A stretch of 27,642 bases of DNA from positions 1-27,642 of IMG/VR virus record IMGVR_UViG_3300012920_000200, one strand, 5' to 3'. The position numbers were made by a program, and so were the translations under genes. The notes under the pieces were generated by a model. It did no database searches. It was not told the DNA's origin and worked only from the letters and a program-made list of their open reading frames with translations. This DNA comes from a virus. Position 1 is the first letter of the stretch. Each line of letters begins with the position of its first letter. This document shows, piece after piece, positions 3,257 to 27,070 of this stretch.

Positions 3257-3515
3257 AGAATTTTTCAGGTTAAAGCTAATGTTTAGCGGTAGCCAAGAAG
3301 ATAAAGAACTTGCATGGGAAATATATGATAATGCATATGAAGATAAAGTAATACTAAATCAGCTAATGGCCAAAGCCTTAATGTTTGAAGATAGACAGCA
3401 GTTTATTGATGGAGTTAAGTTTGAGTTTATTGCTAATAGTAAAAACTTATATGCATTTATATCAGCAGAATCTATTGAGGAAATATATAAAGACATCTTA
3501 AATAAATTATTATGA
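3231..3515 (+). CDS. Hypothetical small phage protein
   Basis: The 94-residue protein starts MKKKIITVEEFFRLKLMF and is largely helical in character, rich in Glu, Asp and Lys. An in-frame TTG at 3225 could add two residues, but ATG 3231 is the natural start. It overlaps the end of the RusA-like gene by 26 nt in another frame, and its TGA overlaps the ATG of the VWA/metallopeptidase gene (ATGA at 3512). No catalytic motif is visible. The tight coupling on both sides supports real translation. Its function is unknown. Confidence 0.7.
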   Translation: MKKKIITVEEFFRLKLMFSGSQEDKELAWEIYDNAYEDKVILNQLMAKALMFEDRQQFIDGVKFEFIANSKNLYAFISAESIEEIYKDILNKLL

Positions 3516-4675
3516 CAAACATCCAAGATTTGGTTGCAAGAACAACCAAGAATTTAATTTTTACTGAGCCCTTTTACGGGCTCTTTTTGATTGGTATCAA
3601 TAAACAATATATTACTACAATACCTACAGCAGGTGTTAGTAAACATAATGTTGGTATACAATTAGCAATTAACCCTGATTTCTATGAAGAGCTTTCAGAA
3701 GATCATAGATATGGATTAATAAAGCATGAGCTTTTGCATATAGCATTTGGTCATCTTATTATGAGGGACTTATATAATGATCATAAGCTATTTAATATAG
3801 CAGCAGATCTAGAGATAAATCAATATATAGCAGAGAGTAAACTTCCTGAAGGAGGATTATTACTAAGCAGTTTTCCTGAGCTTAACTTACCTACAAAAGC
3901 AGGTACAAAAGTATATTATGATTTATTACAACAGGCTAAAGAAGATGGATCATGTCCGGCTCTTGATAATCTAATGAATCAAATGGATGGTAGTACACCG
4001 TATTGTCATACTACATGGGATGAATTTGATGAATTACCTGAAGCAGATAAAAAGCTTATACAAAAACAAGTTGAGCATCAGCTAAAAGAATCTGCAGAAC
4101 AAACTGTAAAAAAGTGTGGTAATATACCGGGGGAGTTAGCTGATCTTATTAGAAGACTTCTTAATGTAGAGCCAGCTAAGTTTGATTGGAAAGGATATCT
4201 AAGAAGGTTTGTAGGAAACTCTAGTGTAGTTTATACAAAGAAACTGAGACGTAAGTATAATAAAAGATACTCTGCAAATCCAGGTCTTAAGATAAAATTT
4301 AAAAATCATATACTTGTTGGTGTTGACACAAGCGGATCTGTAAATAATGATGAATTAAAAGAATTCTTTAGTGAGCTTGTGCATATGCATAAGACGGGTC
4401 ATAAGATTACAGTAGCACAATGTGATACTAGACTGCAAAGCATCAAAGAGTTTAATCCAAATAAAGATTGGGAAATACATGGTCGTGGTGGAACAAGCTT
4501 CCAACCAGTAATTGACCACTATAATGAAAAGAAAGGCGCTTACACAGCCTTGATATACTTAACAGATGGTGAGGCTTATACTCCAGATAACTGTCCTAAT
4601 AATACATTATGGGTGCACAGTTCAAACTGTAGAATAAATGAGGAATTACCAGGATTAAAAATACAATTAAATTAA
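3512..4675 (+). CDS. VWA-like protein with HExxH metallopeptidase-type N-terminal domain (DUF2201 type)
   Basis: The 387-residue protein has two parts. The N-terminal part (about 1-150) has the DUF2201_N pattern: a TEPFYGLFLIG start, a strand with PTAGVSK, then HELLH at 72-76 inside KHELLHIAFGH, a zinc-metallopeptidase-type helix. The C-terminal part (about 265-387) is a von Willebrand A fold with an intact MIDAS motif DTSGS (272-276), a GGTSF segment near 326-330 and YLTDGEA near 349-355. Such VWA proteins typically act with a MoxR-type AAA+ ATPase, and one is encoded 6 nt downstream. Protease activity is not proven; some relatives keep the fold for protein remodelling only. A terminator-like hairpin lies within codons 19-26. 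Confidence 0.8.
   Translation: MTNIQDLVARTTKNLIFTEPFYGLFLIGINKQYITTIPTAGVSKHNVGIQLAINPDFYEELSEDHRYGLIKHELLHIAFGHLIMRDLYNDHKLFNIAADLEINQYIAESKLPEGGLLLSSFPELNLPTKAGTKVYYDLLQQAKEDGSCPALDNLMNQMDGSTPYCHTTWDEFDELPEADKKLIQKQVEHQLKESAEQTVKKCGNIPGELADLIRRLLNVEPAKFDWKGYLRRFVGNSSVVYTKKLRRKYNKRYSANPGLKIKFKNHILVGVDTSGSVNNDELKEFFSELVHMHKTGHKITVAQCDTRLQSIKEFNPNKDWEIHGRGGTSFQPVIDHYNEKKGAYTALIYLTDGEAYTPDNCPNNTLWVHSSNCRINEELPGLKIQLN
3566..3588 (+). promoter_or_regulatory. Intragenic terminator-like hairpin at the start of the VWA gene
   Basis: GAGCCC (3566-3571) pairs perfectly with GGGCTC (3578-3583) around the loop TTTTAC and is followed by TTTTT (3584-3588). It has every mark of an intrinsic terminator but lies inside codons 19-26 of the VWA/metallopeptidase gene. 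It could attenuate transcription into the downstream cassette when translation stalls. It could also be a by-product of the conserved PFYGLF residues it encodes. Confidence 0.55.
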
Positions 4676-4681
4676 TAGAAA

Positions 4682-5959
4682 ATGGCACAAGTAAATTTAA
4701 ACATTGAAGAACTAAAAGGTTTTGTAAATCACATTATCACAAACAATAGATATTTACAGGATAATAGTAAGAGTCCTGTATCAGTAGAAGTTGTAGGTGA
4801 GTCAGGTATTGGTAAGACATCTACTATTGTAGAGCTTGCTAAAGAAAATAAACTGAACTTTGTAAAACTTAATTTAGCACAGATAGAAGAGTTGGGTGAC
4901 TTAGTAGGATTTCCTGTACGTCAATTCCAAATGTATAAAGAAAAGAAGGTGACAGTACCTGGTACAAAAACAAATGATATATCTATGGTTACAGCTACAC
5001 AGAGAGCAGCTGGATCTAGTTTAGCAAACTTAAATCAAACTATTACCAAAAAGATTGGACAATGGGTTGATGAACTTGCCGTTCAAGAGTATCTTAAAAA
5101 TGGATACAAGATGACAGGTAAGAACAGAATGTCATATTGTGCACCTGAATGGATTGCAGATAAGAAAGAAGGTGGTATACTATTATTAGATGACTGGAAC
5201 CGTGCAGATACTAGATTTATACAAGCGGTTATGGAGTTGATAGATAGACAAACATATATCTCATGGACTCTTCCAAAAGACTGGCATATTATATTAACAG
5301 CAAATCCAGATAATGGTGACTATATGGTTAATAGTGTTGACTCAGCACAAAAGACCAGATATGTCACGGCTAATCTAAAGTTTGATGTAAATGTATGGGC
5401 AAAGTGGGCAGAAGGCGCTAATATAGATACAAGATGTATTAACTTCTTATTACTACACCCAGAGTTAGTAACACAAGAAACAAATGCTAGATCTATAACT
5501 ACTTTCTTTAACGCAATATCAAGCTTTGAATCTTTTGAAGATAACTTATCTATGATTCAAATGATTGGTGAAGGTAGTGTTGGTGATGCTTTTGCATCTA
5601 TGTTTACCACCTTTATTAATAATAAGCTAGATAAGCTTGTTACACCTAAAGATTTATTAACTCATGATAATGAACAATATATTCTTAATGAGTTGAGATC
5701 TTGTATTGGTAAAGATGATACTTACCGTGCAGATATTGCATCTACATTAGCCACAAGACTTGGTAACTATGCTGTAGTATATTCTCAAGAGAATACAGTA
5801 ACACAGAAGATTACTGATAGACTTAAAGCTTTGTGTACTCTAGACTATTTTACTAATGATCTTAAATATCTAGTTGTACGTACAATATTTAATGGTAATA
5901 AAAAGAAGTTTAACAAACTGATGATGATCCCAGAGATTGTCACAATGACAATGAAATAA
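4682..5959 (+). CDS. MoxR-type AAA+ ATPase
   Basis: This 425-residue AAA+ ATPase has Walker A GESGIGKTST (Gly39-Thr46 core, Lys45) and Walker B GGILLLDDWNRAD (Asp170-Asp171). The strand IILTANPDNGDYM after about residue 200 is a sensor-1 segment, and the DSAQKTRYVT segment beside it may supply the arginine finger. The WNRAD and TANPDNG patterns are typical of the MoxR/dynein-midasin-like branch. These ATPases couple to VWA-domain partners to remodel or activate target protein complexes. The partner is the gene 6 nt upstream, and the stop overlaps the next ATG (TAATG), so the whole cassette is likely made together. The target in this phage is unknown. Confidence 0.85.
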   Translation: MAQVNLNIEELKGFVNHIITNNRYLQDNSKSPVSVEVVGESGIGKTSTIVELAKENKLNFVKLNLAQIEELGDLVGFPVRQFQMYKEKKVTVPGTKTNDISMVTATQRAAGSSLANLNQTITKKIGQWVDELAVQEYLKNGYKMTGKNRMSYCAPEWIADKKEGGILLLDDWNRADTRFIQAVMELIDRQTYISWTLPKDWHIILTANPDNGDYMVNSVDSAQKTRYVTANLKFDVNVWAKWAEGANIDTRCINFLLLHPELVTQETNARSITTFFNAISSFESFEDNLSMIQMIGEGSVGDAFASMFTTFINNKLDKLVTPKDLLTHDNEQYILNELRSCIGKDDTYRADIASTLATRLGNYAVVYSQENTVTQKITDRLKALCTLDYFTNDLKYLVVRTIFNGNKKKFNKLMMIPEIVTMTMK

Positions 5960-10241: not shown

Positions 10242-12233
10242 ATGAAGCATTGGGTAATGGACTATGAGACATTATCTAATTGTTTTGTAGGTGTGTTTGA
10301 ACATTATAAAACACAAGAATCAAAAGTATTTATAATACATGATATACAGAATGATTTAGATAAGTTTATAGAATTCTTAAAACAAAATTATACAAACAGA
10401 GAGTGGCATATATCCTATAATGGATTAGCCTTTGATGGTCAAGTTACTCATTATATTATAGACAACTATAAAGACTGGGAAGATCTAGATGGTTGTGATA
10501 TAGCTAGACAAATATTTATTTATGCTCAGACTTGCATACAAAAGTCAAGGAATAAAGAGTTCCAAGACTATCCGCAATGGAAGATGAAGATTAATCAAAT
10601 AGATATTTTTAAAATGCATCATTGGGATAATCCTGCAAAACGTTCTAGTCTTAAATGGATTCAGTACAGTATGGATTGGCAGAATATATTAGATATGCCT
10701 ATTCATCATGATACTGTTATTGAAGATAGAGATCAGATAGATACAATTGTAGAATATTGTGTCAATGATGTTAAGTCTACTAAAGAGATATACAATAGAT
10801 CAAAGTCACAGATTGGCCTTAGAAAAGAGCTTACTAAGAAATATGGTATTAATCTTTTTAGTGCATCTGAACCAAGAATAAGTAAAGAGTTATTTGGTTA
10901 TTATTTAACACAAAAACTAAATATACCCAAGAGAGATCTTAGAAATATGAGAACTCATAGAGATATCATAAAAGTAAAAGATATCTTGTTACCGTATATA
11001 GAGTTTAGTTCCCCTGAATTTAAATTACTATTCCAGCGCTTCTCTTCTTTAGAAGTAAACGCAGGTAGTTTGAAGGGTGCATTTAAATATAATCTTATAT
11101 ATAAAGATGTAAAGACTCATTTTGGTTTAGGCGGTGTTCATGGTGCAGCAAATAAAGGTGTATATGAAAGCAATGATAAGATGATTATCATGTCTTCAGA
11201 TGTTACCTCTTTCTATCCTAACCTTGCAATAAAGAATAGATGGTCACCAGGACATTTTCCAAAGCAAGAGTTTTGTGATCAGTATGAGTGGTTCTTTGAA
11301 GAAAGAAAGAAGATACCTAAGAGTAATCCTATGAACTATGTTTATAAGATTATACTTAATAGTACCTTTGGCCTAAGCAATGATGAGAATAGTTTCTTTT
11401 ATGATCCAGAATTATGTTTACGTATTACTCTTAATGGACAGTTGACACTAATGATGCTGTATGAACAGATCATGGAAAGAATCCCAGGTGCTGTAGCTTT
11501 ATTACAAAACACAGATGGTATTGAGACAATGATTCCTAGAGAATATATGGATTTATATATGCAGATCTGTAAGGAGTGGGAAGATAAAACAAATCTTAAC
11601 CTAGAACATGATGAGTACCAAAAGCTTGTACTAGCTGATGTCAACAATTATATTGGTGTGAATAACTTTATAGATGTGGATATCACTAAATGGAGGGAAA
11701 TTAAACAGAGTCAGCCTCACTATCTATTTAAAGTAGATAATGACAAATTTAGTTTTGCTCCAGTCAAGCTTAAGGGTAGATTTGATTTTCATAATTTACA
11801 GTTGCATAAGAATAAGTCCAAATTAGTTATACCTAAAGCTATCTATCAGTACTTTGTACATGATGTATTACCAGAGCAGTATCTAGAACAGAATAAAAAT
11901 ATTCTAGATTATTGTATTGGTGGTAAATCAAAAGGAGATTGGAAACAGGTTGCAAGATCTATCGTAGATGGTGATTACACTGAAGAAAACTTACAGAAAA
12001 TAAATAGATACTTTATTTCTAAGGGCGGTGTAAAGATTATCAAGGTCAACAAAAATGATGATAGAGAGATACAACTAGAAGCAGGACGTTGGTTGCAGAC
12101 AGTATACAATAAAATGGAGGTTGAACCTAAATGGGAAAACTATAACATTGATAAAGCATACTATCTACAAGCAATTGAGTCTGAGATAAACTCAATTCTT
12201 TCTGTAGCATCAAATCAACTAAAATTATTTTAA
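10242..12233 (+). CDS. Family B-like DNA polymerase with 3'-5' exonuclease domain
   Basis: The 663-residue protein replicates the phage genome. The N-terminal proofreading domain has Exo I DYET (Asp7, Glu9), Exo II NGLAFD (Asn60, Asp65) and Exo III YCVNDVK (Tyr172, Asp176). The polymerase domain has motif A SDVTSFYPN (Asp320), motif B KIILNSTFG (Lys369, Asn373, Gly377) and motif C QNTDGIE (Asn423, Asp425). Family B motif C is usually DTDS; here the first Asp is Asn, while the Asp matching the essential metal ligand is kept. At 663 residues it is shorter than T4-type polymerases (about 900) and shows no obvious protein-priming insertions. Its stop overlaps the next ATG (TAATG at 12231). Confidence 0.9.
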   Translation: MKHWVMDYETLSNCFVGVFEHYKTQESKVFIIHDIQNDLDKFIEFLKQNYTNREWHISYNGLAFDGQVTHYIIDNYKDWEDLDGCDIARQIFIYAQTCIQKSRNKEFQDYPQWKMKINQIDIFKMHHWDNPAKRSSLKWIQYSMDWQNILDMPIHHDTVIEDRDQIDTIVEYCVNDVKSTKEIYNRSKSQIGLRKELTKKYGINLFSASEPRISKELFGYYLTQKLNIPKRDLRNMRTHRDIIKVKDILLPYIEFSSPEFKLLFQRFSSLEVNAGSLKGAFKYNLIYKDVKTHFGLGGVHGAANKGVYESNDKMIIMSSDVTSFYPNLAIKNRWSPGHFPKQEFCDQYEWFFEERKKIPKSNPMNYVYKIILNSTFGLSNDENSFFYDPELCLRITLNGQLTLMMLYEQIMERIPGAVALLQNTDGIETMIPREYMDLYMQICKEWEDKTNLNLEHDEYQKLVLADVNNYIGVNNFIDVDITKWREIKQSQPHYLFKVDNDKFSFAPVKLKGRFDFHNLQLHKNKSKLVIPKAIYQYFVHDVLPEQYLEQNKNILDYCIGGKSKGDWKQVARSIVDGDYTEENLQKINRYFISKGGVKIIKVNKNDDREIQLEAGRWLQTVYNKMEVEPKWENYNIDKAYYLQAIESEINSILSVASNQLKLF

Positions 12234-13066
12234 TGATTAAAAGGCAAAGAACTAAAACTCTTGTTACTAAGCCTAATAATAATAGTGCAAATTGCATAGC
12301 TCCTAATATTATCTACGGATGTATGGGGGGCTGTGTAAACACTTATTGTTATATGGCCAGATATAACGGTAAAAGAGTTTTTGTTAATAGTAATGTAGAT
12401 CAAATTTTTAAGTCTGTTGTAGAGTGGGAAAAAACTTTTTATAAAGTCCCTGATCAACAAGACCCTATATATACAATGGTAGATATTGCTTGCAACTCTG
12501 ATTTAGTTCTAATGCAGCGTCATATGCCGGAACCTTTGATAGATTATCTAAAGAGATATGATGATCACCCACAACTTAATAGTACTATGGCTACTAAGTA
12601 TCCAGGATTATTAAAGTTAGATGTGAATCACTTTAATAAGAAACCTAGAGTTCGTGTAAGTCTCATGCCTCAAAAGTATTCTAGTATATTAGAGCCTAAG
12701 ATGCAGTCTATTAGCTCTAGAATATTAGATGTAGAAAGACTTAAAGCGTTAGGATGGGAAGTTCATCTTAATTATAGTCCTTTAATATTCTATCCCGGTT
12801 GGAAAGAAGAGTATAATGATTTATTCTCTGAAGTAAATGCATATGCAGGCATAAATAAGTGTGAGGTAATAGCATTAACCAATCATAGAAATCAAATGGC
12901 TAAAGCATCAGTACGTGCACAAGATCTTATGAAGAGATCATATGAGATAAAAAACAAGTCTGGTGTTATGAGATATCCATTGATACATAAGACACGTCTT
13001 ATAAAAGAATTCAAGCAGATATACTCAATATATTTTCCAATTGAGACAATAAGATATATATTTTAA
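12233..13066 (+). CDS. Spore-photoproduct-lyase-like radical SAM protein
   Basis: The 277-residue protein resembles SplB, which uses a radical SAM cluster to reverse the spore photoproduct, a UV thymine dimer. IIYGCMGGCVNTYCYMA (27-43) matches the SplB segment GC-x2-xC-xYCYL, followed by KRVFVNSNVDQIF, typical of the family. The later IACNSDL (Cys87, Ser89) matches the SplB CTSD segment whose Cys donates hydrogen. The cluster cysteines are Cys30, Cys34 and Cys39, giving CX3CX4C, two residues longer than the usual CX3CX2C. It is shorter than SplB (about 340). Coupled to the polymerase gene by TAATG, it probably acts on DNA. The actual substrate is unknown. Confidence 0.72.
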   Translation: MIKRQRTKTLVTKPNNNSANCIAPNIIYGCMGGCVNTYCYMARYNGKRVFVNSNVDQIFKSVVEWEKTFYKVPDQQDPIYTMVDIACNSDLVLMQRHMPEPLIDYLKRYDDHPQLNSTMATKYPGLLKLDVNHFNKKPRVRVSLMPQKYSSILEPKMQSISSRILDVERLKALGWEVHLNYSPLIFYPGWKEEYNDLFSEVNAYAGINKCEVIALTNHRNQMAKASVRAQDLMKRSYEIKNKSGVMRYPLIHKTRLIKEFKQIYSIYFPIETIRYIF

Positions 13067-13097
13067 TTTGCTGAGTCAAATTAATTTATTATATTTA
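13067..13097 (+). promoter_or_regulatory. Bacteroidota-type promoter upstream of the DUF932 gene
   Basis: TTTG at 13067-13070 and TATATTTA at 13090-13097 are separated by 19 nt. The Bacteroidota consensus is a -33 TTTG and a -7 TAnnTTTG about 19-20 nt apart; the only mismatch is the last base of the -7 box. It lies in the 51-nt gap before ATG 13118. It predicts a start of transcription near 13101-13105 and a short leader. Confidence 0.6.
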
Positions 13098-13117: not shown

Positions 13118-14002
13118 ATGGGATATAAAAAACCAACAGAGACCACAAGGTCATTTTTAGAGAATGCACCCTTACCTAACCATGGTAAGAGTTATACAGT
13201 AGTATCACATAAATCCGTGATAGACAACACTTTAAATCTTCTTAATGCTAGCGGATTTAGAATAGATAGAGAAATATATAGAGCAAACGTGAATGCCAAT
13301 GTAGCACAAGGCATATATCATATCTATCCAATAAACACAACTGATAAAGAAATTAGTAGTGAAAAGGAATTAGGGATGATGTTTGCCTGGACAAATTCAT
13401 ATGATAAGAGTACACGCTTTCAGTGTGCTGTAGGAGCATATGTTGCAGTTTGTTATAACGGTATGATTGCTGGAGATATGATGAATTTCAAAAGAAAACA
13501 TACAGGATCTGCAGACTATGACGTTAAAGTGCATCTTACAGATCAAATAAAGAATGCTGAGAAGTATTATAAGCGTTTGATTAAAGACAAAGAACTTATG
13601 AAAACTATTAAGATGAACTGTAAAGAACAGTCTGAAATGATAGGTAGGCTCTTTGTAGAGGAAGATATGCTTGACTCACAACAAATGACATGCCTTAAGT
13701 CTGAAATGAACAAACCATCTTTTAACTATGGTGATTATGACAATACAGCCTGGGCCTTTTACAATCATGTTACGCATGCATTGAAGAAAGCTCACCCAAG
13801 AGATTGGTTAGTTGACCAACAAAATTTTCATGACTTCATTACTGCTGAGTGTTTTAATAATGGAAAGACTCTGCAGGATTTTGATTTAAATTTTGATAAT
13901 ACTGATTTAGGTATAACTATGGCTGACACAGAGTTAGCAGTAGAAATTGATGAGGATGTAACTCATTCTAGATTAGTACAGGATGTCTACATGGGAAGAT
14001 GA
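13118..14002 (+). CDS. DUF932 family phage protein
   Basis: The 294-residue protein fits the DUF932 group, common in phages and plasmids and of unsettled function. Diagnostic segments are an N-terminal PNHGKSYTVVSHKSVIDN, a central TRFQCAVGAYVAVCYNGM and GDMMNFKRKHTG, then a helical region and an acidic C-terminal third. The family is often encoded next to replication genes. A promoter lies directly upstream, so it may be expressed separately from the polymerase. The stop overlaps the ATG of a membrane microprotein (ATGA at 13999). Family assignment is fairly secure; no function is shown by motifs. Confidence 0.8.
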   Translation: MGYKKPTETTRSFLENAPLPNHGKSYTVVSHKSVIDNTLNLLNASGFRIDREIYRANVNANVAQGIYHIYPINTTDKEISSEKELGMMFAWTNSYDKSTRFQCAVGAYVAVCYNGMIAGDMMNFKRKHTGSADYDVKVHLTDQIKNAEKYYKRLIKDKELMKTIKMNCKEQSEMIGRLFVEEDMLDSQQMTCLKSEMNKPSFNYGDYDNTAWAFYNHVTHALKKAHPRDWLVDQQNFHDFITAECFNNGKTLQDFDLNFDNTDLGITMADTELAVEIDEDVTHSRLVQDVYMGR

Positions 14003-14151: not shown

Positions 14152-14541
14152 ATGGACGCAAAACAAAGAAAAGATAGGCCTGTATTTACAGGAGTTATAA
14201 AATACTTTCCAAAAGCTCTTATGGAAATTGCTAAAGTTTCTTTAGCAGGAAATCAGCAACACCATCCTGATAAACCGTTACACTGGGATCGTGAAAAGTC
14301 AACTGATGACTTTGATGCACTCGCTAGACATCTAATAGATGCTGGTAATATTGATACTGACGGAATTCGTCATACTGCAAAAGTAGCATGGCGTGCATTA
14401 GCTTGTCTAGAAAAAGAACTAGAAGCAGCTGATGAATTCGTTGAGCAATATAATAGGAATCGTGATGTAAAAGATCATATTCTAAGTCATGATGATATAA
14501 TATCTGGAACTGAAACAGGCTATGTAGATGGAGGAATATGA
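14152..14541 (+). CDS. dATP/dGTP diphosphohydrolase N-terminal-type protein (DUF5664)
   Basis: The 129-residue protein carries the whole signature of this family: RPVFTGVIKYFPKALMEIA, VSLAGNQQHHPDKPLHWDR, KSTDDFDALARHLIDAG and DGIRHTAKVAWRALACLEKE. Members resemble MazG-type all-helical hydrolases and are believed to cleave purine dNTPs to dNMP and pyrophosphate, shaping the phage's nucleotide pool. This copy is a single-domain protein, complete for the family core. With nrdAB in the same window it points to active dNTP control. No PurZ- or DatZ-like gene is present here, so modified-base DNA is not implied. It overlaps the zinc-ribbon gene by 14 nt. Confidence 0.8.
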   Translation: MDAKQRKDRPVFTGVIKYFPKALMEIAKVSLAGNQQHHPDKPLHWDREKSTDDFDALARHLIDAGNIDTDGIRHTAKVAWRALACLEKELEAADEFVEQYNRNRDVKDHILSHDDIISGTETGYVDGGI

Positions 14542-26092: not shown

Positions 26093-27070
26093 ATGAAAGA
26101 TATCTTTAAACCTAGAGTAAATATACTGCCTTATGAATACCCACAATTATTAGAATATAAAGATGCAATTAGACATTCATATTGGATTGATACAGAATTT
26201 AACTTCACAGAAGATATACAAGATTTTAAGATTAATATTAGCTCCCAAGAAAAAGATGTAATTAAAAAGACAATGCTTGCAATTGCACAGATAGAGGTTA
26301 ATGTAAAAACTTTTTGGGGTGATTTATATAAACGCATGCCTATTACAGAAATAGGAGATGTAGGTTTTACTTTTGCTGAATCAGAAGTTAGACACAAAGA
26401 TGCTTATGCTAGGCTATTAAGAATACTTGGGTTAGAAGAAGAGTTTAAAAATGTTATTGAGGTACCAGCTATAGCAAATAGAATTAAGTACCTAAAAAAA
26501 TACTTGGATGGTACAAGATCTAGAGATGATAAAATGTATACTAAATCAGTTTTATTATTCTCACTCTTTATAGAACATGTTAGTTTATTTAGCCAGTTCT
26601 TAATTATGATGAGCTTTAATAAAGAAAGAAACGTGCTTAAAGGTATATCTAATGTTGTTGAAGCTACTAGTAAAGAAGAAGAAATACACGGCAACTTTGG
26701 TGCTGAAATTATAAATATAATTAAAAAAGAAAACCCAGAGTGGTTTGATGCAGAGTTTGAAGCTCTTATTTACTCAGCATGTAATAAAGCATATATAGCA
26801 GAATGTGGTATTCTTGATTGGATATTTGAGAAAGGAGAACTAGACTTTCTACCAAAAGAAACCATATGTCACTTTATAAGAAACAGATTTAATAACTCTC
26901 TTGAGAAAATAGGGATGGAACCAATCTTTGATGTAGACAAAGATATGATAAAGTCTGTTGAGTGGTTTGATATAGAAATCACTGGCACAAAAGAAGGAGA
27001 CTTCTTTTACAAAAAAAGTATAGACTACAATAAGAAAAGTAAAAGCATCACATTAGATGACTTATTTTAA
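26093..27070 (+). CDS. nrdB: Class I ribonucleotide reductase small (beta) subunit
   Basis: The 325-residue protein carries the di-iron/tyrosyl-radical site that starts ribonucleotide reduction. All six metal ligands are present: Glu68, Glu98 and His101 (ESEVRH), Glu161 (FIEHVSLF), Glu196 and His199 (KEEEIHGNFG). The radical tyrosine is Tyr105, four residues after His101 as in E. coli Tyr122. The first ligand is Glu where E. coli NrdB has Asp84. The C-terminal tail ends SITLDDLF, the acidic end that docks the large subunit. It precedes nrdA by 12 nt, the reverse of the common order. With the large subunit it supplies dNTPs for phage replication. Expression may be limited by the upstream terminator. 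Confidence 0.93.
   Translation: MKDIFKPRVNILPYEYPQLLEYKDAIRHSYWIDTEFNFTEDIQDFKINISSQEKDVIKKTMLAIAQIEVNVKTFWGDLYKRMPITEIGDVGFTFAESEVRHKDAYARLLRILGLEEEFKNVIEVPAIANRIKYLKKYLDGTRSRDDKMYTKSVLLFSLFIEHVSLFSQFLIMMSFNKERNVLKGISNVVEATSKEEEIHGNFGAEIINIIKKENPEWFDAEFEALIYSACNKAYIAECGILDWIFEKGELDFLPKETICHFIRNRFNNSLEKIGMEPIFDVDKDMIKSVEWFDIEITGTKEGDFFYKKSIDYNKKSKSITLDDLF

Follow-up and report, generated by a model that had tools for sequence, protein, structure and literature searches.

Spore photoproduct lyases (SPLs) are radical-SAM enzymes that reverse a thymine-dimer photoproduct usually discussed for endospores only, and an unvarying spacing of the cluster ligands is usually taken as the hallmark of a radical-SAM family. 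In the SPL of B. subtilis, C91, C95 and C98 are the ligands, C141 is the hydrogen-atom donor, and the radical relay is completed by Y99 together with Y97; all six residues are needed for full activity (PMC3742179). The donor position is known to vary, since in the C. acetobutylicum enzyme the donor cysteine is placed at another site, across the pocket (PMC5368176). The photoproduct forms in spores because their DNA is dry and A-form (PMC3742179). Homologues of SplB are, however, predicted LexA targets in non-sporulating alpha- and beta-Proteobacteria (PMC3323433) and predicted LexA/SOS targets in non-sporulating Bacteroidetes (PMC8565304), which weakens the argument, made in a first-pass annotation of the locus described here, that Bacteroidota do not sporulate and that a phage homologue may hence have another substrate. 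In this work, we describe a viral relative of these enzymes; our main point, as judged from sequence comparison, is an SPL clade confined to viruses in which a non-canonical spacing of the cluster ligands is fixed and goes together with an additional cysteine.

The window, that is, the whole stretch of 27,642 nucleotides that was analysed, is one IMG/VR virus record. An open reading frame at 12233-13066 (+ strand) encodes a 277-aa SPL-family radical SAM enzyme that shows homology to cellular SPL and lacks approximately the first 60 residues of the latter. The protein scores 61.2 bits (E 1e-16) on the Pfam SPL family (PF20903), whose cut-off is 27, and in a phmmer search it matches the solved SPL 4fhc (E=1.8e-10). 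Its best-scoring model is NCBIfam TIGR03886 (135.7 bits, E 2e-39), and TIGR04070 gives 59.5 bits (E 2.5e-16), both scores being below the respective equivalog cut-offs of 437.55 and 400. By these profile and sequence matches, membership in the SPL family is far above chance. The PF04055 Radical_SAM profile has no match in the window, a result of little weight, and no PHROGs family was found for the protein. A first structural model, built from an alignment of close relatives only, was poorly resolved around the cluster; a second one, based on a diverse alignment, reached a mean pLDDT of 91.7 and a pTM of 0.90, with the cluster loop as its least confident part (blocks 31-50 average 66-68). The second model superimposes on the G. 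thermodenitrificans SPL (4fhc) with Z 25.4 and rmsd 2.5 over 263 residues, starting from SPL residue 62, at 20-21% identity to the solved SPL over the aligned region, and the next radical-SAM family is matched with Z 13.7. The Pfam score above the cut-off and this predicted fold uphold the initial assignment as an SPL-like enzyme.

The predicted cluster-binding loop, C30-M-G-G-C34-V-N-T-Y-C39 (12320-12349, + strand), has the spacing CX3CX4C, with the gap between the second and third cysteines two residues longer than in CX3CX2C; the cysteine codons lie at 12320-12322 (C30), 12332-12334 (C34) and 12347-12349 (C39). The segment Y38-C39-Y40 (12344-12352, + strand) is the counterpart of Y97-C98-Y99 of the B. 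subtilis SPL, implicated in SAM binding and the radical relay, and in the segment A-C87-N-S-D90 (12488-12502, + strand; C87 codon 12491-12493) C87 aligns with the hydrogen-atom donor, C141 in B. subtilis and C140 in G. thermodenitrificans. Hence, counterparts of all six B. subtilis residues (three ligands, the donor and two tyrosines) are present in the phage protein. In the alignment, C30, C34, C39, Y38, Y40, C87 and C21 are invariant across the 86 distinct clade proteins, and the SPL catalytic set C87, Y38, Y40 and D90 is likewise invariant in the clade. The codon for Cys21 lies at 12293-12295 (+ strand); this residue, fixed in 86/86 CX3CX4C proteins, is replaced by Phe, Tyr or Trp in all 134 CX3CX2C relatives, and it belongs, with the loop, to dozens of fixed residues peculiar to the clade. 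An annotation artefact, frameshift, or sequencing or alignment slip was ruled out as the source of the spacing because the in-frame CX3CX4C is common to all 86 distinct proteins. Thus, both the unusual spacing and the retention of YCY and of the CNSD segment with its donor-type Cys87, as originally reported, are borne out, including the proposed check of CX3CX4C conservation in viral contigs; the first-pass annotation had named another fold or homologues devoid of the cysteines as counter-evidence, and neither was found, since the model has the SPL fold (Z 25.4) and the homologues keep the cysteines (86/86).

To define the distribution of this spacing, viral contigs were scanned with a profile of the window's clade (206 stretches), with a mixed query (534) and with a canonical-group query (at least 599); the counts, which overlap, are of sequence stretches that were not collapsed into genomes, and the 80 best matches per scan were examined. 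The alignment set drawn from these best 80 consists of 227 distinct proteins, a few of them cellular, among which 86 carry CX3CX4C, 134 carry CX3CX2C and 4 carry CX4CX2C. The CX3CX4C clade accounts for approximately 200 viral contigs, its viral sister group with CX3CX2C is larger (hundreds of contigs), and the identity between the clade and other viral members is 30-37%. Neither this sister group with its canonical motif nor the invariant Cys21 had been noticed in the first-pass annotation. In the maximum-likelihood tree, all CX3CX4C sequences form one group (99/97), so that the clade, on this sequence evidence, has a single origin; the root and the deeper order are unsure because cellular SPL, L212 and L213 sit on long branches, and the unity of this group is the only feature of the tree that we rely on. 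A second spacing variant, CX4CX2C (C-L/I-G-F-N-C-S-Y-C-Y), is found in four viral SPL-like sequences (L254, L302, L305 and L344), for which the tree requires three changes, implying about three origins in the viral sister group. Among the viral TIGR03886-like sequences L221-L238, the donor cysteine is mostly replaced by Glu or Asn (G-E-N-x-D, G-N-N-N-D, G-E-S-T-D), and L222 and L230 keep the cysteine at this site. Pairwise dN/dS values within the clade are 0.07-0.15, about 0.1, indicating purifying selection. Given this selection, it appears very improbable that the altered spacing abolishes the canonical cluster and leaves a non-catalytic DNA-damage binder, or a protein in which Cys21 is an alternative ligand: the literature covered (mostly non-subscription) yielded no mention of CX3CX4C as a motif of radical-SAM enzymes, C21 is invariant and clade-specific, and model confidence is lowest in the loop, but invariance of the three cysteines, Tyr38, Tyr40 and Cys87 under strong purifying selection would be unexpected in a non-catalytic protein.

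Outside the viral contigs, this viral form of the gene is nearly absent from the sequences searched. The window protein has no tblastn match among 50,697 phage records, and the canonical viral (CX3CX2C) group gave two weak partial matches only in isolate phage records. A pattern-based scan of species genomes yielded three MAG contigs only, binned as Pseudomonadales, Campylobacteraceae and Sphingomonadaceae. A cellular origin of the gene was considered, and bacterial ownership was not accepted because L082 carries the phage neighbours too. From these searches, the SPL clade with fixed CX3CX4C is virus-restricted. In the literature covered, mostly non-subscription journal papers, no report was found of a phage-borne SPL or of CX3CX4C in radical-SAM enzymes. 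The scans thereby reveal a large, essentially uncultured viral SPL-like set, with hundreds of contigs and no isolate record found.

Immediately upstream of the SPL-like gene, a family B DNA polymerase is encoded (10242-12233, + strand; phrog_1252, E 3.6e-129), and its stop codon shares one base with the SPL start codon (TAATG). The first-pass annotation took this coupling as support for a DNA role; the overlap is real in the window and the context is one of DNA repair, but the junction recurs in only about 12 of the 67 relatives that have the polymerase upstream. In other relatives, a MazG-like gene, PhoH or small ORFs intervene between the polymerase and the SPL-like gene, or the latter lies elsewhere. 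The one-nucleotide overlap is local to close relatives, and the position of the SPL-like gene varies, its neighbours being genes of replication, of nucleotide metabolism or of repair. In two loci (L140 and L162), the CX3CX4C gene is located near an exonuclease/PolA-type polymerase-like gene, identified by eye, with no family B polymerase in the flank; these neighbours suggest transfer of the SPL-like gene between phage groups. The most constant downstream neighbour encodes a DUF932 protein (13118-14002, + strand, in the window), which is the commonest close neighbour overall, at most 1 kb from the SPL-like gene in 44 of 85 loci. A gene for a uracil-DNA glycosylase (UDG) with the GQDPYP motif precedes the SPL-like gene by 107-387 bases in six loci (L139, L136, L137, L068, L064 and L055), lies within the flank in 14/85 loci, and occurs in 11 of 20 large relatives. 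Neither the FAD photolyase domain (PF03441) nor thymidylate synthase (PF00303) was detected in these 20 large relatives, whose records are possibly incomplete. Nucleotide-metabolism genes (MazG-like, dGTP_diPhyd_N) often adjoin the SPL-like gene; in the window, a protein with the dATP/dGTP diphosphohydrolase N-terminal domain (PF18909, E 5.4e-11) is encoded at 14152-14541. Elsewhere in the window, at 3512-5959, a VWA/metallopeptidase-like DUF2201 gene adjoins an AAA ATPase gene, forming a MoxR/VWA-like pair, and a ribonucleotide reductase small subunit (26093-27070) is 59-60% identical to those of Staphylococcus phages of approximately 134-145 kb.

Between the SPL-like and DUF932 genes, an element conserved in many relatives (13067-13097, + strand) reads TTTG-N19-TATATTTA, then CACTTTAAAAGTTTA. 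The TTTG-N19-TATATTTA part is one mismatch from the -33/-7 consensus of Bacteroidota, and the element is possibly a Bacteroidota-type phage promoter. Across the window, the pattern TTTG-N19-TAnnTTTG is not enriched (10 found vs 6.8 expected, no more than by chance), and the relatives of the DNA polymerase include those from phages of Vibrio, Proteus and Cellulophaga, whose identities are similar. On both grounds, the Bacteroidota host assumed earlier is not established.

A DNA-repair role of the SPL-like gene is likely, and the enzyme that it encodes, with its new cluster motif, probably serves the virus in repairing DNA. Homology, predicted fold, residue conservation, purifying selection and gene context are established for the protein, and its function we infer. 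The reading that we consider fairly probable is a minimal virus-borne radical-SAM enzyme of the SPL type, which would use SPL chemistry, with the cluster loop extended by two residues, to reverse a thymine-dimer photoproduct. C30, C34 and C39 would hold a [4Fe-4S] cluster on this loop; upon reduction, the cluster would cleave SAM to yield the 5'-deoxyadenosyl radical. In the DNA of the entering phage, this radical would take hydrogen from C6 of a thymine dimer joined by a methylene bridge, presumably the spore photoproduct or a closely similar lesion. Splitting of the dimer would follow, Cys87 would give a hydrogen atom back to the thymine radical, and a relay from Cys87 to Tyr40, assisted by Tyr38, would regenerate SAM. 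Such an enzyme would need no light and would work on phage DNA after injection or during replication, alongside other repair functions.

Direct reversal of a thymine photoproduct is the best reading because the full SPL catalytic set is under purifying selection, in an SPL fold and a repair neighbourhood; it is favoured by the Pfam SPL match, the fold match, the invariant residues, dN/dS, the UDG neighbours and the lack of PF03441 in the 20 large relatives. Against it stand the 20-21% identity, the least confident loop, the two missed equivalog cut-offs and the minor share of the spore photoproduct among the lesions of hydrated B-form DNA. The reaction may also differ from that of SPL, as the closest cellular family, TIGR03886, lacks the donor cysteine in the five members examined. 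An SPL-fold enzyme acting on another DNA lesion or a phage-modified base, with the active site reshaped by the longer loop and Cys21, is an unlikely alternative: the low identity to other viral members and the dozens of clade-specific residues would fit it, and the replacement of the donor cysteine by Glu or Asn in TIGR03886-like relatives indicates that chemistry varies within the superfamily, but the catalytic set is invariant in the clade. For a modified base, also proposed in the first-pass annotation, no positive evidence was found, and there is no sign of uracil or hydroxymethyluracil DNA, as the 20 large relatives contain no thymidylate synthase family member and frequently encode UDG. 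Still less likely is a non-repair role, in which an SPL-derived radical-SAM enzyme modifies tRNA, protein or a nucleotide during infection; the frequent nucleotide-metabolism neighbours and the variable place of the gene are compatible with it, but the retained donor cysteine and Tyr relay, a fold match to SPL far above other radical-SAM families and the UDG adjacency argue against it. By analogy, packaged phage DNA may behave like the dry, A-form DNA of spores. A broader and rather doubtful scenario is that virions resemble spores, their dense, partly dehydrated DNA gaining spore-photoproduct-type lesions in sunlight that viral SPL-type lyases would erase on entry, the loop of this clade having been rebuilt to CX3CX4C with the new invariant Cys21. 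With these enzymes, it becomes testable whether viruses repair damage of the spore-photoproduct type.

Within one family, a spacing change is fixed in a large viral clade and about three small CX4CX2C changes have occurred in the sister group, with the remaining catalytic set unchanged, so these variants constitute a natural experiment on how far the cluster loop may vary. Compared with known systems, the phage protein shares with the solved SPLs of B. subtilis and G. thermodenitrificans (TIGR04070; PDB 4fhc-4fhg, 4k9r, 4rh0) the radical-SAM barrel (Z 25.4), YCY at the third ligand and the donor cysteine in C-x-S/T-D. Unlike these enzymes, which have CX2C between ligands 2 and 3, it has CX4C, lacks the approximately 60 N-terminal residues, is 20-21% identical, falls below the equivalog cut-off and is phage-borne. 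The viral CX3CX2C group (S-C-N-E-D type, e.g. L256) is likewise virus-borne and has the donor cysteine and the same conserved blocks, but differs from the clade in its canonical CX3CX2C (few CX4CX2C), the aromatic residue at position 21 and the 30-37% identity. With the TIGR03886 'spore photoproduct lyase family protein' of Proteobacteria, Deinococcus and others, for which we know of no demonstrated substrate, the phage protein shares the IAP, SLMP, EVHxNxSP and C-terminal RYxF blocks, whereas five cellular members (L167-L171) have CX3CX2C and E-N-G-D, with Glu at the donor position, in place of C-N-S-D. At the sequence level, the phage clade thus joins TIGR03886-like blocks to an SPL-type hydrogen donor.
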